Origin: Polynucleobacter sp. 30F-ANTBAC
GTDB taxonomy: Bacteria > Pseudomonadota > Gammaproteobacteria > Burkholderiales > Burkholderiaceae
Assembly: GCF_018882385.1 (NCBI RefSeq)
Contig: NZ_JACVON010000001.1
Coordinates: 914,942 to 978,941 of the forward strand
Reading direction: 5' to 3'
Length of the DNA stretch: 64,000 nt
The number at the start of each line of letters is the position of its first letter. Position 1 is the stretch's first letter. The translations under genes were made by a program, and so were the position numbers. Positions 33,141-63,413 of this stretch are shown piece after piece. The notes under the pieces were generated by a model. The model was given only the letters and a program-made list of their open reading frames with translations. It was not told where the DNA came from and did no database searches.

Positions 33141-34184
33141 TTATTCACCTTTATTTTTAGAGGGGGCAATCGACTCAACTTCCTTGGCCAAAGCTGCCAT
33201 TCGGTCATCAAATTGCTCATATAGCTCACCACGCTCAGTACTGCGCATCAGACTTGGCCCCAAACGTGCATTATCGAGAGGGCTTTTTAAAAATTCTTCA
33301 GGGTGCTGGATCGACTCGAGTTTGACAGCATATCGACCATTTTTAACACCATATTTACCTCGAATCATAGGTAATCCATCGACAAACATGGTCACAGGGT
33401 CCTGAATCTCAATGGGTATGATTTCCCCGACAGACATACTTAATATATCGCCGATAGTCATTTCTTTTCTTGCTAAAACGGCTACAGCAGTTACCAAAGC
33501 ACCTTGTACCTGGCTTTCTAAAGCAGTGGTCCAAAGCAAATCATTTTCACGCTTAACTTTGACATCATTGCTACAGATTTTCTCTTTGAACGGCTCGAAA
33601 ACCCAATATGGAATACAGAAATCTATCTGCCCTTCAACGCCATGAATTTCAATCTTGAACTTACAATGCAAGACCATTTCATCCAGAGCCGTGACTCTGA
33701 CAGCATTAAAGCTTGTTTCATGACGTACAAAATCAAATTTAATCTCTGCAACTGGCTTCCAGGCCTTTTCGTACTCTCGCATCAAAAGATCAAGAATACG
33801 TCGAATAATTCTCAACTCAGTGACTGAAAATCTCTTTTGCTCAAACTTAAGAGGGATATGACCATTGCCACCGAAAATATTATCAATTGCCAAATGAAGA
33901 ATCTTTGGATCAATAACCCAGCATCCAACACCTCTTAATGCCCGAATATTAACGATATTAATATTTGATCGCTCAGGCATTTCATTTAAGAAGTCCTGAT
34001 AACTTTTCAAAGCTGGGGCAAGTGAATTAACTTCAATTGAAGTACCCACCATATTTGTAAAAACTGAACGCAAACTTCTGGCAAAAGTATCATTCACAAT
34101 CTCTAATGCAGGCATTCTCCTGCGGACCATGACATTCCACTTATCAAATACAGACGTCTGTTTATCTACACTTCTTGAATTCAT
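33141..34184 (-). CDS. fliM: Flagellar switch protein FliM
   Basis: C-ring protein that normally binds CheY-P. The 347 residues have the FliM middle domain (from about residue 40, NSLAPALKSYQDFLNEMP) and a C-terminal SpoA domain (about 245-315). The typical CheY-binding N-terminal peptide (LSQDEIDALL) is not seen at the start, which fits the lack of cheY in the window, although cheY could lie elsewhere. Confidence 0.93.
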   Translation of the reverse strand: MNSRSVDKQTSVFDKWNVMVRRRMPALEIVNDTFARSLRSVFTNMVGTSIEVNSLAPALKSYQDFLNEMPERSNINIVNIRALRGVGCWVIDPKILHLAIDNIFGGNGHIPLKFEQKRFSVTELRIIRRILDLLMREYEKAWKPVAEIKFDFVRHETSFNAVRVTALDEMVLHCKFKIEIHGVEGQIDFCIPYWVFEPFKEKICSNDVKVKRENDLLWTTALESQVQGALVTAVAVLARKEMTIGDILSMSVGEIIPIEIQDPVTMFVDGLPMIRGKYGVKNGRYAVKLESIQHPEEFLKSPLDNARLGPSLMRSTERGELYEQFDDRMAALAKEVESIAPSKNKGE

Positions 34185-51039: not shown

Positions 51040-53139
51040 ATGGCTTTTTTTGGTATTTCTTTACAGCGCTTACCGACACCCTCGGCCTCCGCAGCGATAC
51101 CCATATTAGTTTTACTTGTTCTAGTAATGATGCTGGTTCCACTACCAGCACTTTTGCTTGATATATTGTTCACCTTCAATATTGCGGTGGCTATCATGGT
51201 TTTGATATTGGCCATCAATATCAAAAGCTTTAAGGATTTTGTTGCTTTTCCAACCGTTCTCTTACTAACAACCCTTTTAAGACTCTCTTTAAACGTTGCG
51301 TCTACTCGTGTCGTCTTAATTGAGGGACACACCGGTCCCGGTGCTGCCGGTAAAGTCATTGAAGCTTTTGGTCAGTTTCTGATTGGCGGCAACTTTACTG
51401 TTGGTATTGTGATTTTTATCGTAATTACCATCATTAACTTTGTGGTGATTACAAAAGGTTCAGGGCGAGTGGCCGAAGTTTCCGCACGTTTTGCCTTAGA
51501 TTCCATGCCTGGCAAACAAATGGCCATTGATGCCGATCTTAACGCCGGCATCATTAAACAAGATGAAGCCCGTGAAAGACGAAATGACGTCGCCCAAGAA
51601 GCTGATTTTTATGGCTCCATGGATGGTGCATCAAAGTTCGTTCGTGGTGATGCTGTTGCTGGAATCATGATTTTGCTAATCAACTTGATTGGTGGCGTCA
51701 TTGTTGGTGTTCTGCAATACAACCTGGATTTTGGTACTGCATTTAAAACATTTGCAGCACTATCCGTTGGTGATGGACTGGTAGCGCAAGTTCCAGCCCT
51801 GATCATTTCAACAGCTGCAGGTATCTTGGTAACGCGAGTTGCAACAGAAGATACTTTCTCGGAACAAGTTGGTAAACAGTTCGGCACCAACAGCACAAGC
51901 TTGGCAGTTGCTGCCGTGATTTTGGGTGTGCTCGGTATCGTGCCTGGAATGCCACATGCTGTATTTTTGACATTTGCCGTGGTATTTGGTGGATTAGCAT
52001 GGGTTATCAAAACAAAAATTGCTAAAAAATCTGCAACAGCTGCAGCTGTTGCAGCAACACCATCCATCCGCGAAGAACTTGATTGGAAAGATGTTCCAGT
52101 TATTGAGCCACTTTGCCTAGAATTACCTTACCGCCTTATTTCTTTAGTTGAAAAAGGTGATGACAGTGATCTAATCAAACGTATTCGAGCCATTCGTAAA
52201 AAATTTATCGGCGATGTAGGCTTCCTTACTCCCTCTGTTCATATTCGAGATAACCTTCAGCTCCAAGCTGAGACTTATCGTTTTTTACTATATGGCGCTG
52301 AGATAGGTCGAGGTCAATGTTTACCGGATAAGTTACTAGCCATTCAACCGGCTGGTGCAGAAGATATTTCTGGCATTAAAGTGACTGACCCAACATTTGG
52401 AATGCCTGCTATTTGGATCAACCGCACTCAACGAGATGAAGCCATTACCAAAGGCTATACAGTGGTTGAGCCAGCCGTAGTTCTTGCCACGCACCTAGAT
52501 CATCTTGTACACAAACATGCTCATGAATTACTCGGTCGTCAAGAAACTCAAGATTTGCTAGAACACTTTAAGAATAGTTACCCCAAGTTAGTGGAAGACG
52601 TTATTCCAAAAGTTGTGACGGTTGCTAACCTACAAAGACTCCTTCAATTATTACTAGAAGAAGGTGTCCCCATTAAAGACTTAAGAACTATTCTTGAGAT
52701 TGCTGGGGAAGTTGCTCCGAAATTACCTGAGCCACAAGATATGCTTCAGCATATTCGTTTCGCTCTTAGAAGAACTATTGTTCAAGAAACATTTGGCGAC
52801 TCAATCAATTATTCCGTATTGGGTATACAACCAGAGTTTGAAAGACTGATTGACCAAGCCATTGGCAATAACTCAGTAGCGCCTGACGGTGTTATTGAAC
52901 CAGGCTTAGCCAGACTATTTGGTGAAGAAGTTATTCGCGGAGTAGACGCACTTGAAAGTCTTAACTTGCCACCGGTGATCGTTTGCAGCACCAGATGCCG
53001 TTTGACCTTCTCAAGGTTGGCTAAAAGAGTGCGGCCTCAAGTTATTGTTTTAGGTATGGGTGAACTACCACCAACCTCTAATTTATCTTACTATCAAGTA
53101 CTGTGCTCACAAGCTGCGCCTAACACTAATCGAGGTTAA
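51040..53139 (+). CDS. flhA: Flagellar export gate protein FlhA
   Basis: Main export gate protein and docking platform. The 699 residues have about eight N-terminal membrane segments, the FHIPEP loop (GRVAEVSARFALDSMPGKQM, DADLNAG) and a large cytoplasmic domain (from about 345) that binds chaperones. First gene of flhA-flhF-flhG-fliA. Confidence 0.97.
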   Translation: MAFFGISLQRLPTPSASAAIPILVLLVLVMMLVPLPALLLDILFTFNIAVAIMVLILAINIKSFKDFVAFPTVLLLTTLLRLSLNVASTRVVLIEGHTGPGAAGKVIEAFGQFLIGGNFTVGIVIFIVITIINFVVITKGSGRVAEVSARFALDSMPGKQMAIDADLNAGIIKQDEARERRNDVAQEADFYGSMDGASKFVRGDAVAGIMILLINLIGGVIVGVLQYNLDFGTAFKTFAALSVGDGLVAQVPALIISTAAGILVTRVATEDTFSEQVGKQFGTNSTSLAVAAVILGVLGIVPGMPHAVFLTFAVVFGGLAWVIKTKIAKKSATAAAVAATPSIREELDWKDVPVIEPLCLELPYRLISLVEKGDDSDLIKRIRAIRKKFIGDVGFLTPSVHIRDNLQLQAETYRFLLYGAEIGRGQCLPDKLLAIQPAGAEDISGIKVTDPTFGMPAIWINRTQRDEAITKGYTVVEPAVVLATHLDHLVHKHAHELLGRQETQDLLEHFKNSYPKLVEDVIPKVVTVANLQRLLQLLLEEGVPIKDLRTILEIAGEVAPKLPEPQDMLQHIRFALRRTIVQETFGDSINYSVLGIQPEFERLIDQAIGNNSVAPDGVIEPGLARLFGEEVIRGVDALESLNLPPVIVCSTRCRLTFSRLAKRVRPQVIVLGMGELPPTSNLSYYQVLCSQAAPNTNRG

Positions 53140-53148
53140 CGAATCATT

Positions 53149-54519
53149 ATGGGACCGCAAAAATTTGTTGCCGCCAACTCAGCTGAAGCTCTAAGAATGG
53201 TTAGAGAAAAGATGGGGTCTGATGCGATGGTGCTTTCAACTAAAGATGTTCCAGAAGGGGTTGAAATTGTTGCTATCTCACCGGATGCACTATCTTATCT
53301 AGCCAATCAGAAAACTACTTTTCCATCAACTCAGGCTAAGACTTTTACTTCAGAGCCACCCCTTGAAAAGAAGCCAGGCTCTATTCCTAACCTAGGTGGT
53401 TTAGTCATTGCAGATGTTCTGCAAAACAGCTCAAGGGCAAGAGGTTTAGATCGCAGCCCAGTCATTCAACCCAATAACCTTCAGCCAACCAATCATTCTG
53501 ACAATTCAAAATTAGCGGGTCACTCACCCAGCCCTAATGAGTCCCCAAGAGTTGAACGCTTAATTGCTGAAGTAGAAGAAGTTAAAAAAATGCTGCAGTC
53601 GCATCTAGCGACGAACTACTGGGGCAACATGCAACAGCAAGCAGTTAACCAAGCCGAAGTTACAAAAGCTTTATTGAGTGCTGGTTTTTCACCTAAGTTG
53701 TGCGCACAATTGGTTCAAGATTTAACTGAAGAAGGTGACGTAAAGAAACTACTTCATCAAGCTCAACTCAAACTTGAGGGCATGATTAAATTAGTCGACC
53801 CAATTACCGCTTTTGATCAGGGTGGTGTTTTTGCTTTTATTGGCCCAACTGGGGTGGGTAAAACTACAACGGTTGCAAAAGTTGCTGCTCGATGTGTTCT
53901 TCGATATGGACGAAATCAAGTTGCCTTGTTAACGACTGATACTTACCGTATTGGAGCTCAAGAACAGTTAAAGGTTTTTGCAAAAATTCTTGGTCTACCA
54001 GTTGTCTCTCTTCGAGATAGTGAAGATTTGGCATCAAAAATTGATGAGCTATCACAAAGAAAAATTATCCTCCTTGATACTGCAGGTGTGAATCAACGCG
54101 ACGTTCTCATGATCGAACAATCACAACTTCTCAAAGAAGGTTCACGTCATGCCCACCGCATCTTGGTCATGAGTTCTACGACAGACTTAAGAACTCAAGA
54201 AGACGTCATCATGCTCCACAATCAAGCATCCAAGGAAGGTGATCAATCTAGTATTCTAGGTGCCATCATTACTAAAACTGATGAAGCAGCCCAACTAGCC
54301 CCTGTATTAGATTGCCTCATTCGACATCAGCTACCCCTGCTATTCTTATCTAATGGGCAACGAGTTCCCGAAGATTTAAGTCAAGCGAATATCCCTTACC
54401 TTGCGCATAGAGCCATGCATCCACGACATTTAGGCAATAATTTAAATGTCAATGATGATCAAGTACCGGCACTCATGGCAGACCATCTTAACGACTGGAC
54501 TAAAAAGAACTTCTCATGA
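53149..54519 (+). CDS. flhF: SRP-like GTPase FlhF (flagellar placement)
   Basis: SIMIBI GTPase that marks the cell pole for flagellar assembly. The 456 residues have an N-terminal B domain (KFVAANSAEALRMVREKMG), a Ser/Pro-rich linker (about 65-130), an N domain, and a G domain with GPTGVGKTTT (about 230), DTYRIGAQEQ and LDTAGVNQRD. Nine bases after flhA. Confidence 0.95.
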   Translation: MGPQKFVAANSAEALRMVREKMGSDAMVLSTKDVPEGVEIVAISPDALSYLANQKTTFPSTQAKTFTSEPPLEKKPGSIPNLGGLVIADVLQNSSRARGLDRSPVIQPNNLQPTNHSDNSKLAGHSPSPNESPRVERLIAEVEEVKKMLQSHLATNYWGNMQQQAVNQAEVTKALLSAGFSPKLCAQLVQDLTEEGDVKKLLHQAQLKLEGMIKLVDPITAFDQGGVFAFIGPTGVGKTTTVAKVAARCVLRYGRNQVALLTTDTYRIGAQEQLKVFAKILGLPVVSLRDSEDLASKIDELSQRKIILLDTAGVNQRDVLMIEQSQLLKEGSRHAHRILVMSSTTDLRTQEDVIMLHNQASKEGDQSSILGAIITKTDEAAQLAPVLDCLIRHQLPLLFLSNGQRVPEDLSQANIPYLAHRAMHPRHLGNNLNVNDDQVPALMADHLNDWTKKNFS

Positions 54520-55322
54520 ACCCAGATAGCCCAGCAAGTATTAGCGCCACAGACCAAGCGGAAGGCTTAAGAAACATTTTTGGCCAACCTTATGCCAAGG
54601 CTTATGTGTTGGCAAGTGCTTTAGATGCTGATAGCACTGTTGCGATTGGCTTAGGCACCGCACACTCACTTCGTAAAGCGGATCATAAAGTCCTATTGAT
54701 TGATGAAGTACCTCTTAACCAACGTCAAGGGTTAGCGGGATTTTCCTATCCTGTGCAATATGACTTAGGACAGGCTTTTTCAAATCTAATTGGAATTGAA
54801 AAATGCATACGCGAGGTCGATGAAAATCTTTGGTTTGCAAGTAGTGCCAGAATTCATCAGTACTTTAAAACTAAAAAAACAAGAGGCCCTGCTCTTGATA
54901 TTCGTCTGCATCAACTAGGGATGAATATTGATTATTTTGTCATAGCAACAACTGACCCATTTAATCCGGTTCTTTCGCTTTACAGCAAAGAAATTAATTA
55001 CATTGTCATAGCCTCTGTGAATAGCGACTCTTTGGTTAAAACCTTGGGACTTATTAAGGAGCTCACATTAACTGGAACAGAAAAACCAATTCCAGTCATG
55101 ATGGTTGGCGGCCTTGATCGAAAAGAAGGTGAGCAAGCCTTTGAAAGACTAAAGACTGCAGCAACACAATACCTTGAACAGCCCATTGAACTGCTCTGCT
55201 GGGTAGGTGCAACATCCCTAGGTGAATTATCCACCCAAGAAACTGATACAACTGTGAAAAAGAAAGACCTCCTCTTGCCAGCTGGCCTTTTCAAACAGAT
55301 GGCTAACAAAATAGCAAGTTAA
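54516..55322 (+). CDS. flhG: FlhG/FleN-like MinD-family protein lacking the P-loop
   Basis: In position (flhF-flhG-fliA) and overall fold this is the MinD-like partner of FlhF that limits flagellar number. The 268 residues keep VLLIDEVPL and VIATTDPFNPV strands, but where the deviant Walker A (KGGVGKT) belongs the sequence reads ASALDADSTVA (residues 33-43), without the lysines and with no glycine run. ATP binding as in MinD is therefore doubtful. It overlaps flhF by 4 bp. A frameshift is unlikely because the frame is open and aligned throughout. Confidence 0.82.
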   Translation: MNPDSPASISATDQAEGLRNIFGQPYAKAYVLASALDADSTVAIGLGTAHSLRKADHKVLLIDEVPLNQRQGLAGFSYPVQYDLGQAFSNLIGIEKCIREVDENLWFASSARIHQYFKTKKTRGPALDIRLHQLGMNIDYFVIATTDPFNPVLSLYSKEINYIVIASVNSDSLVKTLGLIKELTLTGTEKPIPVMMVGGLDRKEGEQAFERLKTAATQYLEQPIELLCWVGATSLGELSTQETDTTVKKKDLLLPAGLFKQMANKIAS

Positions 55323-55330
55323 GTCTTAGT

Positions 55331-56032
55331 ATGCGTCCTCGCTCGGCCAACCCGTACAACAGCCATAATCTTGATGAGGCGATTAAGACTCACACCCCTC
55401 TTGTCAAAAAGATCGCTCACCACATTGCATCACGTCTTTCTGCTAACGTCGAAGTAGATGATCTTATTCAAGAGGGTATGACTGGCTTATTAGATGCCTT
55501 ACAACGTTATGAACCGCAACCCAATCTCAGTTTTGAAGTGTATGCAAAAACTAGAATTAGAGGTGCTATTTATGATTCTTGTAGAAAAAATGACATTCTT
55601 CCAAGACATCAAAGAGATCAAGTCACATCCTTAGAAAAAGTAACTCGTTCACTCGAGCAGAAATTGGGGCGACCAGCAGATGATTTAGAAATAGCAGAAG
55701 CAGCAGGTCTTAGCTTAGATGACTATTTTGCAGTGATTGGCAGCATGGTTAATTTGATGCCATTAGATGACTTGCCAGAAGACATGCTGCCATCAGATCA
55801 CGCCAATGATCCAATGCGCTTAATCTCGATGAAGCAAATTGCTAGTCAGATGGAGGCCACTCTTAAAAATTTGCCTGAAAAAGAGCAATTAATCATGGCC
55901 TTACACTATCAAGAAGAGCTATCGTATCGCGAGATTGCGGTTGTGATGCAGTTGACTCCCGGAAGGATCAGCCAGCTTCACACACAGGCAATGATTCGCA
56001 TCCGCTCAGATCTTAAGAAAGATTTGAGTTAA
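55331..56032 (+). CDS. fliA: Flagellar sigma factor FliA (sigma-28)
   Basis: Directs RNA polymerase to late flagellar genes and is held by FlgM until the hook is done. The 233 residues have region 2 (VEVDDLIQEGMTGLLDALQR), region 3 and region 4 (LPEKEQLIMALHYQEELSYR ... GRISQLHTQAMIRIR). Eight bases after flhG. Converges with the next gene, overlapping by 4 bp. Confidence 0.97.
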   Translation: MRPRSANPYNSHNLDEAIKTHTPLVKKIAHHIASRLSANVEVDDLIQEGMTGLLDALQRYEPQPNLSFEVYAKTRIRGAIYDSCRKNDILPRHQRDQVTSLEKVTRSLEQKLGRPADDLEIAEAAGLSLDDYFAVIGSMVNLMPLDDLPEDMLPSDHANDPMRLISMKQIASQMEATLKNLPEKEQLIMALHYQEELSYREIAVVMQLTPGRISQLHTQAMIRIRSDLKKDLS

Positions 56033-56760
56033 TTAAATAGCGCACTAATTTCAAGTGTCAAAACCGATCCCGGTGGGTGAAGCTTTTTAATATTATTATT
56101 TTTATGTGCGGCTTTACATTCTTCGAATGAGTTAAACACCTTCAAGAACCCATCGGATTCGACAGCCACATGGTCACTAAAAAACATGAGATACAACACT
56201 TCTTCTTCCTGCTTAACTGAGAAGAACTTATTCTTCACCAACTCCTGAATGCTTAATGCTTTGTAATCAAAAGCATTATCTGGCAATCTTGCAGCTAACA
56301 ATTGCCCCCTAAAATAATTTTGATATTTTTTATCTTCTACTATCTCACCTTTAACTTCCGAATCGATTGAGATCTCTGTTTGTGTTGTTTTTTTCTCTTC
56401 TATTGCTAATTTTTTTAATTTTGAAAAGATACTTTCAAGTTGCTCACCTTGAATATCAACCAATCTATACGATGAAACATAAGCTCCTGCAAAGCAAACA
56501 AATGCGATAAATAAGTAAAAAGTAACGGTGTTTTCAGAGACTGATTGGATGTTTTCTTGGTTAAACATCTTAATGACTGCTGCAGAAAAAATAATCGCTG
56601 AAATACTAGCTATATGGCGCCCTATTTTAGCGATGCCTCTATTGGTGGCTGTTTTAATGAAGATAATTCCAAGGGCATAAAAGAATAGTACGCCAGGCGC
56701 CTGCATGGGCATTAAATAGGTCAATAAATAAATCAGGGCCTCAGAAAAATTATTATTCAT
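56029..56760 (-). CDS. Unknown membrane protein inside the flagellar region
   Basis: I do not recognise this 243-residue protein. It has three hydrophobic segments near the N-terminus (about 22-36, 49-64 and 78-98), a Lys/Glu-rich helix (about 105-135) and a C-terminal domain (about 145-243) with alternating hydrophobic residues such as VLYLMFFSDHVAVESDGFLK. It stands between the end of fliA and the end of flgN, downstream of flgN by 93 bp, so it may be the last gene of the flgAMN transcript. A weak GGGA/TCCC hairpin lies in that gap. No motif suggests an enzyme. Confidence 0.7.
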   Translation of the reverse strand: MNNNFSEALIYLLTYLMPMQAPGVLFFYALGIIFIKTATNRGIAKIGRHIASISAIIFSAAVIKMFNQENIQSVSENTVTFYLFIAFVCFAGAYVSSYRLVDIQGEQLESIFSKLKKLAIEEKKTTQTEISIDSEVKGEIVEDKKYQNYFRGQLLAARLPDNAFDYKALSIQELVKNKFFSVKQEEEVLYLMFFSDHVAVESDGFLKVFNSFEECKAAHKNNNIKKLHPPGSVLTLEISALFN

Positions 56761-56853: not shown

Positions 56854-57243
56854 CTACACCTTACGAGACAATACGCCACCCGTTAGATTTGGAATACTGC
56901 CGGAACTTGAGTAGGTTGCAGAGTCTGATTGTTGAGCCATAAATGCCTGAAGAGCTGCATTTTTTTGCATCGCCAATTTGATCAACTCACCGTTAATCTG
57001 ATGATCCACTCCAGCCTTCTGCAACTTCTCTTCTATTTCTGTTTTCAAGTGTTCATCAAGTAAAGAGATATCCTTCTTTAACTGTTCAACGCCACCTGGA
57101 TATGAGTTCATCTGATCAAGTGCTGCTTGAGCTTTTGCTAGCGCATCGGCTAGATCATCCATTCGATCTTCTTCAAGAACTGCTCTCAAAAAAGATACGG
57201 CTTGAGCTACTTGATTAACTTGTGTTTGAATTGCACTAGACAC
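56854..57243 (-). CDS. flgN: FlgK/FlgL export chaperone FlgN
   Basis: Cytoplasmic helical chaperone of 129 residues. The all-helical composition and place directly after flgM match FlgN; the sequence itself is poorly conserved in this family (AVSFLRAVLEEDRMDDLADA near the N-terminus). Confidence 0.82.
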   Translation of the reverse strand: MSSAIQTQVNQVAQAVSFLRAVLEEDRMDDLADALAKAQAALDQMNSYPGGVEQLKKDISLLDEHLKTEIEEKLQKAGVDHQINGELIKLAMQKNAALQAFMAQQSDSATYSSSGSIPNLTGGVLSRKV

Positions 57244-57255
57244 TCGAATCGGTCT

Positions 57256-57588
57256 TTAATTGTTTTTTGATCGATCAATAGCAGAGACAGCGTCTTTGAG
57301 CATTTGCTCTGCTATCTTAGGGAAATCCATTTTGAATTCACCTTTTTCAATTAATTCACGAATTTTAGATAAGGCTTCAGTTTCTGAAATTTGATGAGCT
57401 AATGTACTTGCTGGTGCGTTAGTTGTTTGAGCAACTGACGAATTAATCCCGATATTGACCGCGGGTGTTGCTGAAGGTCCAGCGGATTCACCACTGCTGA
57501 CATTTGACTTTTTTGAATCAACAGGAGATCCGACGCCTTTTTTAGCATCAGTTGTTGTTACTAGAGGTCTGCTGTCATTAATCTTCAA
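57256..57588 (-). CDS. flgM: Anti-sigma-28 factor FlgM
   Basis: Holds FliA inactive until exported through the finished hook. The 110 residues have a disordered Ser/Thr/Pro-rich N-terminal half and the C-terminal FliA-binding helices (ALSKIRELIEKGEFKMDFPK). Follows flgA by 17 bp; no separate sigma-28 promoter was seen. Confidence 0.92.
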   Translation of the reverse strand: MKINDSRPLVTTTDAKKGVGSPVDSKKSNVSSGESAGPSATPAVNIGINSSVAQTTNAPASTLAHQISETEALSKIRELIEKGEFKMDFPKIAEQMLKDAVSAIDRSKNN

Positions 57589-57605: not shown

Positions 57606-58355
57606 TTAATTCACATTAATTTCTACTGCCCCGGGTGAGCTGATTGTCCCTTGGAGAACCTGACCATCCGGTAATTTAACTTTTATTATCTCATTAATTG
57701 AACCGGATGATTGAGCAATTCCCTCACCTGTTGCTTGAAAACCGGCCCCAATCACCTGGACTCTGACTCGATCTCCTACCTTTATTACGGATGGTTCCTT
57801 TAAATTGTTTAGCGAAATATAGGACCCCGCCTGAATAGCCCTAACAGCTTGCCTACCCGTTGCCTCATTAATAGAGCGAACCACATCATCTGGAAGCGAA
57901 CTCAAATCTCCTTCGATTATGCGGACGTCAGCAGGTGATATTCTATATCCAGAATTGATAAACTTGGTAGTGAGTACATACTCACCAAATACTAAAACTT
58001 TGATGGGTAATGATATAAACCAACCTTTTCCAGTCTGACAGCGCAGCTGTAAGTTAACCCGCCCCCAAGGTCTTACCCGGGCGGGCAAAGCAACATCAAT
58101 TGGGCCAGCACAGTTTGGCAGCTTGATTTTTGAGTCAATATACTCAATATCCACCTTTAATCCAGCCATTGTTGGGTGTTTTGATACAAATTGACGTATT
58201 GATTTATCCAAGGAAAGTGGAATTTGCGTTTGGGCATACCCCAAAGTACCAAAAGTAAGCCCTAAGCTCATGAATAAGCTCATAAAAAAAGCTTTTCTAA
58301 AGCTTAGAAACCTTATTGAAAAACGTTGAGCCATCACTTCTCTAACCTTCCTCAT
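57606..58355 (-). CDS. flgA: P-ring assembly chaperone FlgA
   Basis: Periplasmic chaperone for FlgI. About 249 residues with a signal peptide ending near GTLGYA and a C-terminal SAF domain (about 125-245; VRIIEGDLSSLPDDVV and IKVGDRVRVQVIGAGF). I chose the ATG at 58355 because it overlaps the upstream stop (ATGA) and has AGGA at correct spacing; an upstream in-frame TTG at 58379 is less likely. The overlap ties flgA to the chemosensory-like cassette. Confidence 0.92.
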   Translation of the reverse strand: MRKVREVMAQRFSIRFLSFRKAFFMSLFMSLGLTFGTLGYAQTQIPLSLDKSIRQFVSKHPTMAGLKVDIEYIDSKIKLPNCAGPIDVALPARVRPWGRVNLQLRCQTGKGWFISLPIKVLVFGEYVLTTKFINSGYRISPADVRIIEGDLSSLPDDVVRSINEATGRQAVRAIQAGSYISLNNLKEPSVIKVGDRVRVQVIGAGFQATGEGIAQSSGSINEIIKVKLPDGQVLQGTISSPGAVEINVN

Positions 58356-59590
58356 GCGGTCCTTTTTAAGGAGATCCAAGAGTATGGACGATTAGCGTGA
58401 TCTATGGCAACACCGCGCAACCATTCTGGTCCGGTTAATAAACTAGGCAAGGCAAATACATTCATATTCGAAACTGGCAATAATTCCTCGGCATACAAAG
58501 TACAGCTTTGCAGGCCGCACATGAGAGTGATTTCTTTAGGACAACCCTCCGCACCCCCCAAGGCATCATATGTGCCTACTGTGTTGAGAACATTGCCGAC
58601 GGAAACCAACTGCGCCCAGCTAACAACAAATTGATCAGCCCCTCTCATAAACGAGATTAGCCGCATTCTTTTTAAACTACTTGGAATAATTAATCGAACA
58701 GATTGATTAACAAATTCTAGACGTCCTGAAAGATTGGCTACCAATTGACCTGCATTTTCTAACTCTAAAGGGCTTGGAGAGACATTTTGCAAATCAATGA
58801 ATAAAGTTAAAGCTTGCTTTGAGACTCTTAATAGTGAAGCCTTAGGCAGTATGCTTAAAATCGTAGAAAGAGCTTCCAACACATCAGCATCGGCCAAAAT
58901 CATAGCCGCATCTACTTGCTCTGCTATTCCATCAAGATAATTAGCAAGATTTAATTGACCAAACTCTAAAAGAGCATCTTGGTGCTCACCTAACAAACTA
59001 TCCACATCTTTTGGAGATGCTTGCTCAAAGACCAATCTGCGAATCCTTTGAACTGTATTAAGCGCATGCCTTCTTTGGGCCAGCAGAATTGCCCCAGAAT
59101 ATAAACTGGAAACTTGAGATGGCTTTGTCGGGCTGGGTTGCTGCGAATCTACTGCATTTATTTGCCATGATTTTGATGTCGCAGGCATGACATCAGAATT
59201 AGGATTGAGATTAAATTGATTTTTAAGTGGTTCATTTAATTGAGACAAATCCAACATGCTATTAGCTAACTTTTGAATTTCGTCAATTTGATCAGGAATA
59301 ATCACCACGTCATCTGTTGCAGCCAAGACATCAAGAGCTTTTTTTAGAAGCTCTACCAACTGGTACGTCACAGGTAAAACTGATTGTTGCTCTTGAGATA
59401 GTTGCCTAGCGATATCAGCAGTAATAGCGCTAAGCTGCAATAAACCAACGCTACTCAGGGCATCTGCCAGATCTCTTGCATGCAATGCTGCTTGCAACAA
59501 GTCTGGCCGATCTCTTTCAATAGAAAGAATTAAACCATCAAATGAGCGATTAATATCAGTAACGAAAAGTGTTAAAAAGTCGTTAGCCAC
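58352..59590 (-). CDS. ChpA/CheA-like protein without kinase: Hpt-like bundle plus CheW-like domain
   Basis: A 412-residue cytoplasmic protein. Residues about 1-125 and 170-285 are helical bundles reminiscent of Hpt modules, but the phospho-accepting HxxKG pattern is absent (the place reads ALHARDLADALSS). Residues about 295-412 read like a CheW domain (ISFMRGADQFVVSWAQLVSV; LLTGPEWLRGVAIDHANRP). There is no dimerisation/HATPase region with N, G1 or G2 boxes, so it cannot be a CheA kinase. It is the fifth gene of the cassette, 2 bp after the PilJ-like gene, and its stop overlaps the flgA start. Domain calls are by eye. Confidence 0.65.
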   Translation of the reverse strand: MANDFLTLFVTDINRSFDGLILSIERDRPDLLQAALHARDLADALSSVGLLQLSAITADIARQLSQEQQSVLPVTYQLVELLKKALDVLAATDDVVIIPDQIDEIQKLANSMLDLSQLNEPLKNQFNLNPNSDVMPATSKSWQINAVDSQQPSPTKPSQVSSLYSGAILLAQRRHALNTVQRIRRLVFEQASPKDVDSLLGEHQDALLEFGQLNLANYLDGIAEQVDAAMILADADVLEALSTILSILPKASLLRVSKQALTLFIDLQNVSPSPLELENAGQLVANLSGRLEFVNQSVRLIIPSSLKRMRLISFMRGADQFVVSWAQLVSVGNVLNTVGTYDALGGAEGCPKEITLMCGLQSCTLYAEELLPVSNMNVFALPSLLTGPEWLRGVAIDHANRPYSWISLKRTA

Positions 59591-59592
59591 AA

Positions 59593-61173
59593 CTAAGCAT
59601 CCAATCTAAAAGATGAGGTGCTCCTAGGTTCAGACTCAAAATTTTCCCCATGAATAGCATGTTCAAGCGCGTCACTCATTTCTTCTAAAACGCCATCCAT
59701 ACGTTCAATTTGCCTCTCCCATTGAGTGAGCGCCAAAATAAGACCCTCAGACTCTCGGCTAATCTTATGCAAATCATTTTTCTCCATACCTTGCTTGTAT
59801 GCAAAGGCTTGTTTGATTGACGTATCAACTTGCACTAGATTTTGCTCTAAGTTATCAACTATGGCACTTATCCTGATGCATTGATCTGCCACATTGCCAC
59901 CCGATGAGATACCGGAGTTAGATAAAGACATTTGTATCGTTTGTTCACGTAAAGCTACAATTTCTTGACGCATTCTTAATAATTCCGTCTCAACAAGATT
60001 CATCGGCTTAAGAGCATCCACACGATCTCTTTGACCAGATAAACTCGCTTCAGTAAGAACCCCATGAAAACGTTTTAACGCTTTTAAAACCTTACCCCCA
60101 AGATCAGAAACCTGGTTCACAGCAATTTGGGTGTACGGCAAAATATCTTGTGTTTCTCGCAAGAAACTCACTTTTTTAGAATGCCCGATATCTTGAATAT
60201 CGATATCGCTGTAACTCTTACGCCTATCACCAACAACAATAACGATTAACGCTCCCACGATTGAAATAATGGTCAAGAGGTGAGTCATATCAAGAAATAC
60301 TTGAGCATCACCACTGCTGACACTCGACTCCAGCGAACTTGCAATGGCATCATAAATATCTTTATCTTTTGTGAGATCCAAAACCTTATCTCGAGAAACC
60401 GTGAATTTCTCAAGCGCATCTGCATACTCTGCAGACCTGACCCATACTGGGGTCTTTTTCAAAACCTTATAAATATTCTCTTGAGCAGCATTAAATTTAT
60501 TATCTTTATTCAAAGCCTCTAATATTGGCTTCTGATCAGCAGCCAATAGTAAAGATGATTGAAGCTGCTTTGTAGACTCAACATCACCGACATTATTAGT
60601 CCAATTTTGCAAAGCGATTGAAAGCGACGACATAGCTTCAGCTGTTTTTCTGAATGGAGAATCCGTACGTATACGATTAATATCAAGCAAAGACTTCTTA
60701 GATACATGGCTTATAGCTTGAGCAGCCTCCAACCCAGAACTTAGAGCAATAATACTTTTCTCAGTTGAAACCAAATTCTTCATAGCATCTCGAAGAAGAA
60801 AGATTCGAGCCTTAACGTGTTGATCGGATACTGGCTTTTCTAGAAGTAATTTTTCCAAAATTGGATCTATTTTTTCGGGACCAACAAGCTTTTCCAATTG
60901 CTTTTGCGCTCGATTAACTCTACTAAAGTAATCACTTCCAAGAGATTGAGATACCTCTACAACTTGCCTTGATAAATTAATTTTTTCAACATAAATTTTC
61001 ACCTGTTCACTTTTTTGCAAAGCCTCGGCTGCTGAGGTATTTTTATGTCGCTCGATCATAATGGAAACACCAAATGAAGTTAGCGCACAAATTAGCAAAA
61101 ATACTAAAAGTAACTTTCTACCAAAATCTTTTTTAGACAGCATTTCACTTAAAATTTTAAAAAAGTTAGTCAT
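59593..61173 (-). CDS. PilJ-like membrane sensor without a methyl-accepting tip
   Basis: A 526-residue protein with two membrane helices (about 19-38 and 295-315) around a ~255-residue periplasmic helical domain, as in PilJ and other type IV pilus chemoreceptors. The cytoplasmic part (316-526) is coiled coil (ETELLRMRQEIVALREQTIQ), but lacks a HAMP domain and the EAARAGE-type hairpin of methyl-accepting proteins. It overlaps the CheW-like gene by 8 bp. Likely an inner membrane sensor or scaffold; what it senses is unknown. Confidence 0.65.
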   Translation of the reverse strand: MTNFFKILSEMLSKKDFGRKLLLVFLLICALTSFGVSIMIERHKNTSAAEALQKSEQVKIYVEKINLSRQVVEVSQSLGSDYFSRVNRAQKQLEKLVGPEKIDPILEKLLLEKPVSDQHVKARIFLLRDAMKNLVSTEKSIIALSSGLEAAQAISHVSKKSLLDINRIRTDSPFRKTAEAMSSLSIALQNWTNNVGDVESTKQLQSSLLLAADQKPILEALNKDNKFNAAQENIYKVLKKTPVWVRSAEYADALEKFTVSRDKVLDLTKDKDIYDAIASSLESSVSSGDAQVFLDMTHLLTIISIVGALIVIVVGDRRKSYSDIDIQDIGHSKKVSFLRETQDILPYTQIAVNQVSDLGGKVLKALKRFHGVLTEASLSGQRDRVDALKPMNLVETELLRMRQEIVALREQTIQMSLSNSGISSGGNVADQCIRISAIVDNLEQNLVQVDTSIKQAFAYKQGMEKNDLHKISRESEGLILALTQWERQIERMDGVLEEMSDALEHAIHGENFESEPRSTSSFRLDA

Positions 61174-61549
61174 GCGTATTCTCCAGTAGACTCACCACAT
61201 CAAGAACTTGATCCAAATAATGAATTTGATTTTCAAGATTGATGACGGCGTGAAACGGTCCAATTGTTTTCTGAACCCTAAAACCAATATCGGCATCTTC
61301 ATTAGACTTTAAAACTATCACCCACGATGAAGGCTCTGATTCATTTTCCAGGGTCTTTAACTCAACTCCAAAAAGCTCGGCAGGTGACAGGAGAAAGACA
61401 GGTACTCCTTCATGCACTTCAAGGCCAAATGGCTTGGCCGGCGTCTTAAGCAAAACACTATAAAAAGCAGATGCAACAGCGCTCAATGGCAACGCCAACT
61501 TACGCTGATTAATTTCAAAACCCAACCATTGCTGTTGCTCTAACATCAA
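61166..61549 (-). CDS. CheW/PilI-like adaptor
   Basis: A 127-residue soluble protein with the CheW pattern: WLGFEINQRKLALPLSAVAS at the start, a central KPFGLEVHEGVPVFLLSPAE and a SWVIVLKSNEDADIGFRVQK strand. CheW proteins link receptors to CheA; PilI is the pilus version. No CheA with a kinase domain is in the window. It is next to the PilJ-like gene in the order known from Pil-Chp operons. Confidence 0.72.
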   Translation of the reverse strand: MMLEQQQWLGFEINQRKLALPLSAVASAFYSVLLKTPAKPFGLEVHEGVPVFLLSPAELFGVELKTLENESEPSSWVIVLKSNEDADIGFRVQKTIGPFHAVINLENQIHYLDQVLDVVSLLENTHD

Positions 61550-62626
61550 TTAGCTTTCTAAATTTTGGTTAGACAAGAAACGTAAACGAATCACAAAAGC
61601 TGAAATACATAAAATGAACGCAGCAGCAAATCCAAGCAAAGCCTGTTGAAATGCTTTCATAACAGTCTCTTGATTGGAGATGTTGGATCGCAACTTACCA
61701 TGGAACGCATCCATTTGATTTAAATACTTTTCATGATGCCAAGTTAGCATTCCAGTCGTATTTATTTTTTCATACTTATCTAAATCAAAGTTTTGATTGA
61801 ACCCCATTGACATAAGACCGGAGATAAAAGTATTCAAACTAGATACGTAGTCTTTTTTAAGGCTTTCGCCTACAACCTTGACAAATTGCTCGTCAAATTG
61901 ATTCGCTAAACTTACCCCATCCGATTTTGAGATGTAACTTAAACCATCAGGAATAACAAATAAGATCCCAATCTGATTAACTGAAAAATTTTCTTTTCCA
62001 TCTGTTGAGGTAATTTGTAGTTGTTTTTTTCCGCGCGCGATAGAAAAAGAAAGCTGTTGAGTTGTTGTTGTATCAACTAATTGGTAAAAATCCCAGACCG
62101 AATTAATTGGTTCAACTCCAATCATTTTAATTTGATCGCCTGACTTGAAGCCCCAACCCTCAGCCAACGAACCTTTTTGGACGTGTGCAACTATTGGATT
62201 TATTTTTCTTAAAATAGTTTCAGCACGCTTATTCTCAAAACCCCTTAAATTGGAAAATATTTTTAGCAGGGTTTCTTCAGACGATTCCTGAATATTTAAA
62301 TTAGATTTTTCAGTTTGAATTAATTTTTCTTTAGCTGCAGCAATGGGGTTACCAAGAGGTATTGTTTTGGGTAACTCATTATTCGCAACAGGATTTGTTG
62401 GGATTACTTTAGTTGAATGCTCAACACCCAATTCAAGAAGATAGTCTGTAAATAATGGATTCTTAATGGCAATTGATGCGTTCTCTTTTGTAAAGTCTAA
62501 GGTCTGTTGACCCAAGTAACCCATCCAAGCAGTAGCTAAAGCCAATATCAATAACGACAAGGCAAAAAACCAATAACTTAAACCTTTAATTTTTTTTATT
62601 TTTTTATTCTTGCTATACATTCTCAT
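61550..62626 (-). CDS. Membrane protein with a PDZ domain
   Basis: A 358-residue protein with one membrane helix at each end (about 17-38 and 329-348). Residues 144-206 form a PDZ domain close to those of RseP (IVAHVQKGSLAEGWGFKSGD, then SFSIARGKKQLQI). No HExxH zinc site, catalytic Ser/His/Asp set or other protease motif is seen, so it probably binds peptides rather than cuts them. The first in-frame ATG is used; a second ATG two codons later is possible. Its stop touches the next gene (61549/61550). Confidence 0.72.
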   Translation of the reverse strand: MRMYSKNKKIKKIKGLSYWFFALSLLILALATAWMGYLGQQTLDFTKENASIAIKNPLFTDYLLELGVEHSTKVIPTNPVANNELPKTIPLGNPIAAAKEKLIQTEKSNLNIQESSEETLLKIFSNLRGFENKRAETILRKINPIVAHVQKGSLAEGWGFKSGDQIKMIGVEPINSVWDFYQLVDTTTTQQLSFSIARGKKQLQITSTDGKENFSVNQIGILFVIPDGLSYISKSDGVSLANQFDEQFVKVVGESLKKDYVSSLNTFISGLMSMGFNQNFDLDKYEKINTTGMLTWHHEKYLNQMDAFHGKLRSNISNQETVMKAFQQALLGFAAAFILCISAFVIRLRFLSNQNLES

Positions 62627-62642
62627 GGCTTTCTAGGTCATT

Positions 62643-63413
62643 CTATACAAATTGCTTTTTTAGTCTTTCGACGTCTTGGTGCTTAGCTCTCAAAACTAAC
62701 TCCGCCTCTCTAACATCCATGAGCATGCGACAAGTTAATAAGTCCCGTAACCACGCTCCGGATTTCATTGCTATAACAGCTTCCTCAAGCAATATTTTTG
62801 ACTCCGATTCCTCGGGCCTGACTCTAACAATCAAACAGGCGTCTTTATTACCATCCAACAGAGTGAGCTCCAAAAACTTCACTTGCGAATACTCGTGCCA
62901 CTTTGAGCTAAGCACATAATCTCTGCTAAACAACTTAAATGCGACCCTGAGGCCAACATCCACAATTAATTGATCAACAAATAAATCGGTTAGTCCTATT
63001 TGCTTATGCCACTTTAGATCTTCAGCTTTAGCATCTGATTGCTTTTTAGGGTATGACCGAGTCTCTTCATATATCCTAAATAACGTTAATGGCAGTTGTT
63101 TTTTGGTAGCTAATTTTTTAGCTAATTCTGCATTGGCAGTGACCTGATAACGCTCTTGAGCTAAATTTTTCTGCAACATTTCAAAATCTCTATCTAAACT
63201 ACCTTGAATGAGATTAATTTCTTCAAGCGCCTTTTTCCATAACGGGTCTTGCTCTGCAACTTGTTTTTCCAGCATTAACTCTGAGGATAAATTCTCTTCG
63301 CTCTTATTTTTAGAGTTTTTGTAAGCCCAAAGGCCAATAAAAAGGAGAGTTATGAAAATGCACAAACCGACTATGACATAGCCTAGATTATTAATTGGGT
63401 AAAAATCTTGCAT
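62643..63413 (-). CDS. Unknown single-pass membrane protein, first gene of the cassette
   Basis: I do not recognise this 256-residue protein. One N-terminal membrane helix (about 11-30), a Glu/Lys-rich coiled coil (about 35-100) and a C-terminal soluble domain (about 125-235) with alternating strands (FLELTLLDGNKDACLIVRVR). It lies 17 bp before the PDZ gene and opens the five-gene cassette. An AT-rich inverted repeat stands just upstream. It diverges from coaE. Confidence 0.68.
   Translation of the reverse strand: MQDFYPINNLGYVIVGLCIFITLLFIGLWAYKNSKNKSEENLSSELMLEKQVAEQDPLWKKALEEINLIQGSLDRDFEMLQKNLAQERYQVTANAELAKKLATKKQLPLTLFRIYEETRSYPKKQSDAKAEDLKWHKQIGLTDLFVDQLIVDVGLRVAFKLFSRDYVLSSKWHEYSQVKFLELTLLDGNKDACLIVRVRPEESESKILLEEAVIAMKSGAWLRDLLTCRMLMDVREAELVLRAKHQDVERLKKQFV

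Follow-up and report, generated by a model that had tools for sequence, protein, structure and literature searches.

A cassette of five genes next to flgA

The window analyzed here, a stretch of 64,000 nucleotides (nt) from Polynucleobacter sp. 30F-ANTBAC (contig NZ_JACVON010000001.1, positions 914,942 to 978,941), contains a cassette of five genes, A to E, that runs into the flagellar genes flgA, flgM, and flgN (Table 1). All five genes are open reading frames (ORFs) on the minus strand with no gap wider than 16 nt: the coordinates place 16 nt between A and B, 0 nt between B and C, an overlap of 8 nt between C and D, and 2 nt between D and E. In the DNA, the stop codon of E overlaps the start codon of flgA as ATGA. 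An initial annotation of the window, made from the DNA letters and a list of ORFs, had described the cassette as chemosensory-like, kinase-less, and “fused to flgAMN”; the genes indeed adjoin and overlap flgA, and no fusion of proteins is involved.

The same gene order recurs in other genomes. Forty loci of the genus were read, 32 of which have A-B-C-D-E-flgA and five of which have C-D-E-flgA only, the remaining three being cut by contig ends. This recurrence, together with four loci in another family, excludes a chance arrangement of the five genes. The cassette genes are conserved and under purifying selection: the ratio of nonsynonymous to synonymous substitution rates (dN/dS) of A–E is ≤0.15 in every tested pair with unsaturated dS (10 pairs chosen), and that of flgA is 0.05–0.11.

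Gene E is predicted to encode a dead CheA

The AlphaFold2 model of the E protein (pLDDT 76, pTM 0.56) suggests a P1-like part (residues 3–119), a disordered stretch (120–162), a P3-like hairpin (163–210), a shrunken P4 (about 211–306), and a P5/CheW-like domain (307–411). CheA core-unit structures are among the Foldseek matches listed for this model (8c5v_A, 6e-10; 6s1k_A, 9e-9; 1b3q_A, 5e-8), and in a second structural comparison residues 158–412, which include the two helices of the P3-like part (163–190 and 194–210), match 3ja6_C with a Z-score of 14.1. The P4-like part aligns with 1i58_A over 90 residues (Z 11.2, root-mean-square deviation (rmsd) 1.7 Å). Its fold comprises 96 residues compared with 188 in the CheA chain, and about half of P4 is therefore gone. 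The P5-like domain matches 4jpb_A (Z 11.3, 101 aligned) and the CheW structure 2qdl_B (Z 10.3), and the P1-like part, a helical bundle, matches the CheA P1 structure 2ld6 (rmsd 2.1, 93 aligned) with Z 12.6, a value near 12 being common for such bundles. By profile comparison with hhalign, E aligns with five CheA sequences over late P4 and P5 with a P-value of 4.4e-5, compared with 0.0018 for ChpA. The order CheW-like, PilJ-like, ChpA-like read by the initial annotation is kept, with the amendment that E is closer to CheA than to ChpA in this profile comparison.

The catalytic signatures of a CheA kinase are missing from this layout. The Hpt histidine motif H..[KR][GA] is found in none of 40 E proteins (first 130 residues) and in all eight reference CheA/ChpA sequences (searched whole), as is the case for D.G.G (0/40 in the last 260 residues of E; 8/8 references searched whole). 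The best-conserved histidine column of the P1 region has His in 25/40 sequences, and G.G.G occurs in 5/40, always upstream of the P4-like fold. Patterns for the N-box were uninformative, yielding chance matches outside P4. Pfam reported no HATPase_c in window E, in its relatives, or among the families listed for members, and no response regulator family in E; Pfam Hpt matched the window copy at 0.0038, under the cut-off, and one of 32 members at E ≤0.05. Across all 40 E proteins, 19 alignment columns are invariant. A single borderline hydrophobic stretch, seen in the hydropathy profile, falls within the P4-like fold.

The absence of a phospho-accepting histidine had been noticed before, as had that of a HATPase, which holds for the Pfam family and not for the fold. 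Because the shrunken P4 appears to retain a HATPase-derived fold, E is better described as a CheA predicted to be dead than as a protein lacking the HATPase domain. One locus, L069, was excluded from the E counts; its E ORF encodes 247 residues, whereas A–D and flgA are of normal length, and E is either broken or shortened there or affected by an assembly error.

CheW-like, receptor-like, and membrane proteins

Gene C is CheW-like, as judged from profile matches. Pfam CheW matches the window copy at 0.0072 and 16.4 bits (cut-off 23.5) and 17 of 28 members at E ≤0.05, with a best value of 2.5e-5; one copy in the genus (G207), whose neighbors are in frame, reaches the cut-off. Comparison by hhalign with three CheW and two PilI references was not significant (P 0.13 and 0.28, respectively).

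Gene D, which ranges from 15 to 41% identity to the window protein across members, has two membrane segments by hydropathy, a periplasmic helical domain, and a cytoplasmic helical part that is modeled with low confidence. The top structural matches of the periplasmic model are PilJ (8wdf, Z 12.3; 7zjr, Z 11.9), followed by the sensor domains of McpS and TorS; Foldseek gives 0.044 for 7zjr and lists no match at E ≤0.001. The signalling hairpin of methyl-accepting chemotaxis proteins (MCPs), PF00015, was found neither in window D or its relatives nor among the 25 families listed for 31 members, in agreement with the earlier statement that D has no methyl-accepting hairpin. Comparisons of D with MCP and PilJ by hhalign were unconvincing (P 0.26 and 0.013), the PilJ alignment lying outside the PilJ periplasmic domain, and Pfam PilJ was not found in the window's own genome. 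In three loci from larger genomes (L074, L075, and L076), both D (792–817 residues) and E (793–874 residues) are longer; judged by eye, the periplasmic part of these longer D proteins seems to be repeated. An MCP-tip-like stretch in the long forms of D was likewise seen by eye only and is supported by no tool.

The two further membrane proteins reported at the head of the operon are borne out. A has one N-terminal membrane helix followed by a long soluble part, the C-terminal part of which contains many invariant columns. B consists of a membrane helix, a PDZ domain, and a C-terminal membrane helix (two segments by hydropathy); the window copy of the PDZ domain is under the cut-off, and PDZ_6 and PDZ_2 match 20/20 members at E ≤0.05. 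A sequence profile search for A gave no relative in the PDB, and a ZipA match was rejected because it has an E-value of 0.03 and covers residues 10–57 only, that is, the membrane helix and its edge. For E, D, C, and A alike, PDB profile searches by sequence returned either nothing or chance matches to sodium channels, designed proteins, spike coiled coils, or transthyretin. Named Polynucleobacter records contain gene A, as do genomes of the window's genus. Five loci keep C-D-E without A and B, and their genomes have no gene A; this makes A and B look accessory and C-D-E look like the core. B is absent at the same five C-D-E-flgA loci, no search for it having been made outside its loci.

The cassette marks one flagellar type

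Among 186 genomes of the genus, FlhA was found in 62, FliM in 63, gene A in 39, and CheW in 46 (39 over the cut-off). FlhA scores fall into two classes, and the cassette is present in 38/38 genomes of the low class as opposed to 0/21 of the high class, three FlhA fragments or weak matches belonging to neither; the cross-table of cassette, FlhA class, CheW, and FliM start was compiled by hand. The cassette thus marks one flagellar type in the genus, and the co-occurrence with flagellar genes holds across genomes. Outside the cassette, CheW over the cut-off occurs in 3/44 cassette genomes (G207 was not counted, its match being gene C itself) and MCPs occur in 5/44; profile searches of the window's own genome found neither. 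A separate cluster with MCP, CheA, CheW, and a receiver domain lies about 5 kb from the flagellar block in G074 (locus L110, 3304–11084), and CheW and MCP matches were likewise obtained in G196 and G231.

An E profile run over 398 genomes of the family (25 genera) matched the genus only, plus one borderline match at 0.00996. In the order (399 genomes, 158 genera), the profile matched four genomes of a second Burkholderiales family, referred to here as f18, of which 12 genomes are deduced to have been searched. All four f18 loci read A-B-C-D-E-flgA-flgM-flgN facing fliA and flhG, with flhF and flhA also visible in three of them and a contig end in the fourth. The alignments of cassette proteins (A3–A7) hold 32, 31, 28, 24, and 20 rows of the 36, 38, 39, 35, and 35 listed, respectively.

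FliM of the cassette flagellar type is altered

The window FliM matches its family model from position 38 only. In the genus, the match starts at position 30 or later in 41 genomes, hereafter altered FliM, and at 1–3 in 22, hereafter intact FliM; 39/41 genomes with altered FliM have the cassette, and 21/22 with intact FliM are without it. Two genomes counted as altered, G223 and G177, have a model match from position 8 that runs through a stop codon, with no docking motif in the upstream translation. In f18, the match starts late in 5 genomes and early in 13, and three of the four genomes with gene E are in the late set, whereas the fourth (G628) gave a short match only.

What is missing from the altered start is the usual docking motif for CheY. 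The EIDALL motif is, in the portion of PMC9126983 consulted, described as the CheY-binding motif of FliM/FliY and stated to be present in all motile bacteria. The docking motif [LI][ST]xxE[AIVML]xxL was sought in the first 40 residues of 68 FliM sequences (34/41 altered and 17/22 intact in the genus; 4/5 late and 13/13 early in f18); it is present in 0/38 of the cassette type vs. 30/30 of the others, and conversely a C-terminal tail pattern is present in 36/38 vs. 0/30. In the window, FliN included, none of the six frames matched a slightly stricter docking pattern. Loss of chemotaxis is by itself not a sufficient explanation of the change, because most genomes with intact FliM also have no CheW over the cut-off (17/22 in the genus); in f18, CheW was found in 2/26 genomes, both with intact FliM. 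That intact-FliM genomes of the genus and of f18 are mostly without CheW over the cut-off and yet keep the FliM docking motif is an observation in its own right.

In a tree of the FliM core (quick method, midpoint root), all 38 cassette-type sequences form one clade (SH-aLRT 100, stem 1.36), and the link between cassette and FliM is therefore one evolutionary event, in one flagellar lineage present in two families. A partial sequence, L192, was excluded from the FliM counts and tree.

Comparison with known systems

Chemosensory arrays are understood as kinase-controlling machines. The cassette flagellar type as a whole, found in two families, combines a predicted dead CheA with a FliM that has no EIDALL motif, offering a natural test of what an array scaffold can do without phosphorylation and of how a flagellum may be regulated without CheY docking at FliM. 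The relatives that carry the cassette include named strains of Polynucleobacter, a genus of freshwater plankton.

The cassette resembles the CheA-CheW-receptor core unit in the predicted P1-P3-P4-P5 layout of E, the CheW-like C, the receptor-like D in the membrane, and the link to a flagellum; unlike that unit, it has no phospho-His motif, no D.G.G, no recognized MCP hairpin, and no CheY motif on FliM, and its P4 is of half size. This agrees with the initial annotation's proposal that the protein–protein parts of chemotaxis were kept and phosphorylation was dropped. E has no working kinase domain, D has no normal MCP domain, and the proteins fall into no named Pfam or NCBIfam family.

The Pil-Chp system (PilI, PilJ, ChpA) shares the order CheW-like, PilJ-like, CheA-like, and the periplasmic model of D fits PilJ best. 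In the excerpt available of PMC12632253, ChpA is more than three times the size of CheA, contains nine or more Xpt domains along with a kinase and a receiver domain, and works via PilG and PilH; the Xpt array, kinase, receiver, and PilG/PilH are not seen in E or the operon. CheA3 of Rhodobacter sphaeroides is likewise a CheA relative with P5 and without a kinase domain. According to part of PMC6829392, its P1 His is retained and CheA4 phosphorylates it, whereas E is without the His motif. FimL of Pseudomonas aeruginosa is Hpt-like with its phospho-acceptor replaced, Gln standing at two putative acceptor sites of its Hpt-like domains in the section of PMC3019171 at hand; it matches the N terminus of ChpA, whereas E adds P3-, P4-, and P5-like parts and lies in a flagellar operon. 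ParP of Vibrio, as presented in an extract of PMC5706961, is a non-catalytic P5/CheW-like scaffold in a polar array. It shares with E a non-catalytic P5/CheW-like domain, but its array contains a genuine CheA and it has ParC as a binding partner, whereas remnants of P1, P3, and P4 are present in E and, in 41/44 cassette genomes, no CheW exceeds the cut-off outside the cassette.

In the papers searched, we found no description of kinase-free chemosensory control via the FliM tail, no paper on a pseudo-CheA, and, among the papers listed for Polynucleobacter flagella and chemotaxis, no description of the cassette system. A 2012 genome paper, in the part accessible (PMC3308952), describes a strain without motility.

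Possible function of the cassette

The interpretation we tentatively favor, giving it somewhat less than an even chance, is that a phosphorylation-free, membrane-anchored, chemosensory-derived complex acts on the cassette flagellum by contact. D would span the membrane as the receptor-like part with its PilJ-like periplasmic domain, the CheW-like C and the dead-CheA E would form the cytoplasmic part, and in most lineages A and B would supply an additional layer at the membrane. The input would be a signal from the envelope or from assembly that D (and B) senses. It would shift the C-E assembly, which would then touch the C-ring or basal body directly and act on it in this way, replacing CheY-phosphate. 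We infer a single C-D-E complex, its contact with FliM or neighboring parts, a signal for D, and an output. The parts of this interpretation that the results support are the order of the genes, their conservation and purifying selection, the dead-CheA layout predicted for E, the lost motifs, and inheritance together with altered FliM. The change in FliM directs attention to the motor of the flagellum and makes the C-ring the leading candidate target. A narrower version, in which D-C-E reads an envelope signal, docks on the C-terminal tail of FliM, and replaces the CheY route with no phosphorylation step, is in our judgment unlikely. Pili, which the initial annotation had named alongside flagella, were not pointed to by anything met in the analysis.

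Several observations weigh against action by contact. The contacts among C, D, and E and with the motor are inferred only, and the link to FliM has a single evolutionary origin and so is no proof of function. G285 and G305 have altered FliM, gene A not being found in these metagenome-assembled genomes (MAGs; 83 and 78% complete), and the MAG G313 has gene A together with intact FliM on separate contigs. There, A and B lie on a short contig and the intact-type FliM on another (C71, C95), which would mean either two flagellar types in one cell or a mixed bin. Pfam Hpt is seen in 1/32 E proteins at E ≤0.05, and the match of P1 to CheA and that of D to PilJ both have Z near 12, a value common for helical bundles. 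Without a recognized MCP tip in D, some other surface would have to serve for the docking of C and P5. No search aimed at CheY, CheR, or CheB was made.

Because flgA, flgM, flhF, and flhG adjoin the cassette, assembly or polar placement is the main rival to a motor target. The cassette would then be a polar landmark or an assembly checkpoint that marks the pole or senses completion of the rod, P-ring, and hook together with FlhF/FlhG and FlgA/FlgM, with no control of rotation and with an independent change in FliM. Its invariable place beside flgA-flgM-flgN, facing fliA-flhG-flhF-flhA wherever the contig reaches, is in keeping with such a role, and the non-catalytic ParP and the Hpt-like FimL serve polar organization (PMC5706961 and PMC3019171, in the parts cited above); it does leave unexplained the loss of the docking peptide and the conserved FliM tail, while 17/22 intact-FliM genomes of the genus keep the motif without CheW, and we regard it as somewhat unlikely. 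An envelope sensor governing either the expression of flagellar genes or the export of FlgM, touching neither motor nor pole, would fit an operon shared with flgM and facing fliA; with no DNA-binding or output domain in the five proteins (Pfam, NCBIfam), this is quite improbable.

Phosphorylation could also be hidden, with a separate kinase or response regulator serving the set in the way that CheA4 serves CheA3, which has no kinase domain (PMC6829392, same portion). No search for CheY-like proteins was made, which leaves room for such a partner, but the P1 region has no conserved His (25/40 at best), CheW is over the cut-off in so few cassette genomes (3/44), and cassette-type FliM is without the docking motif, all of which make this very unlikely. 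A Che or Chp operon in decay, of which a functionless remnant is left, would account for the lost catalytic motifs, for the low identity of D to the window protein (15–41%), and for the 247-residue E ORF of L069; such decay is scarcely credible given dN/dS ≤0.15, a gene order fixed in two families, and 19 columns identical in all 40 E proteins.

Flagellar neighborhood

The window also contains fliF, fliG, fliI, fliM, fliN, fliO, fliP, flgE to flgI, flgK, flgL, motA, and motB, as well as two flagellins, fliD, fliS, flaG, flhA, flhF, and fliA. The flhG of the window is named from its position.

Table 1. Cassette genes and flagellar features of the window
Feature	Position	Strand	Length	Remarks
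Gene A	62643–63413	minus	256 residues	open ORF
Gene B	61550–62626	minus	358 residues	open ORF
Gene C	61166–61549	minus	127 residues	open ORF
Gene D	59593–61173	minus	526 residues	open ORF
Gene E	58352–59590	minus	412 residues	open ORF
flgA	57606–58379	minus		likely start, ATG at 58355; ChapFlgA 6.6e-25
flgM	57256–57588	minus		NCBIfam FlgM_jcvi 5e-08, under cut-off
flgN	56854–57243	minus		FlgN 0.00016, under cut-off
Membrane protein between fliA and flgN	56029–56760		243 residues	no family match above cut-off
flhA, flhF, flhG, fliA	51040–56032	plus		convergent with the cassette operon; related loci arranged alike
fliM of the cassette flagellar type	33141–34184	minus		no N-terminal CheY-docking motif
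Conserved C-terminal tail of FliM (residues 294–324)	33213–33305	minus		tail pattern of cassette-type FliM

Pattern scans upstream of the operon found no sigma-28 match in the loci and one sigma-54-like match, in a single locus (L076). In most relatives of the genus, and not in the window, a pair of genes stands upstream of gene A, as seen in L008 (1531–2748), where they encode an Adhesin_E-family protein (149 residues, 2.4e-09) and a PilZ-like protein (252 residues, 0.0079, under the cut-off); the latter could be an input for cyclic di-GMP. Very long flagellin-like ORFs also lie near the cassette, one of 1484 residues with a repetitive middle (L081, 12450–16904) and one of 1038 residues (L008, 10288–13404).

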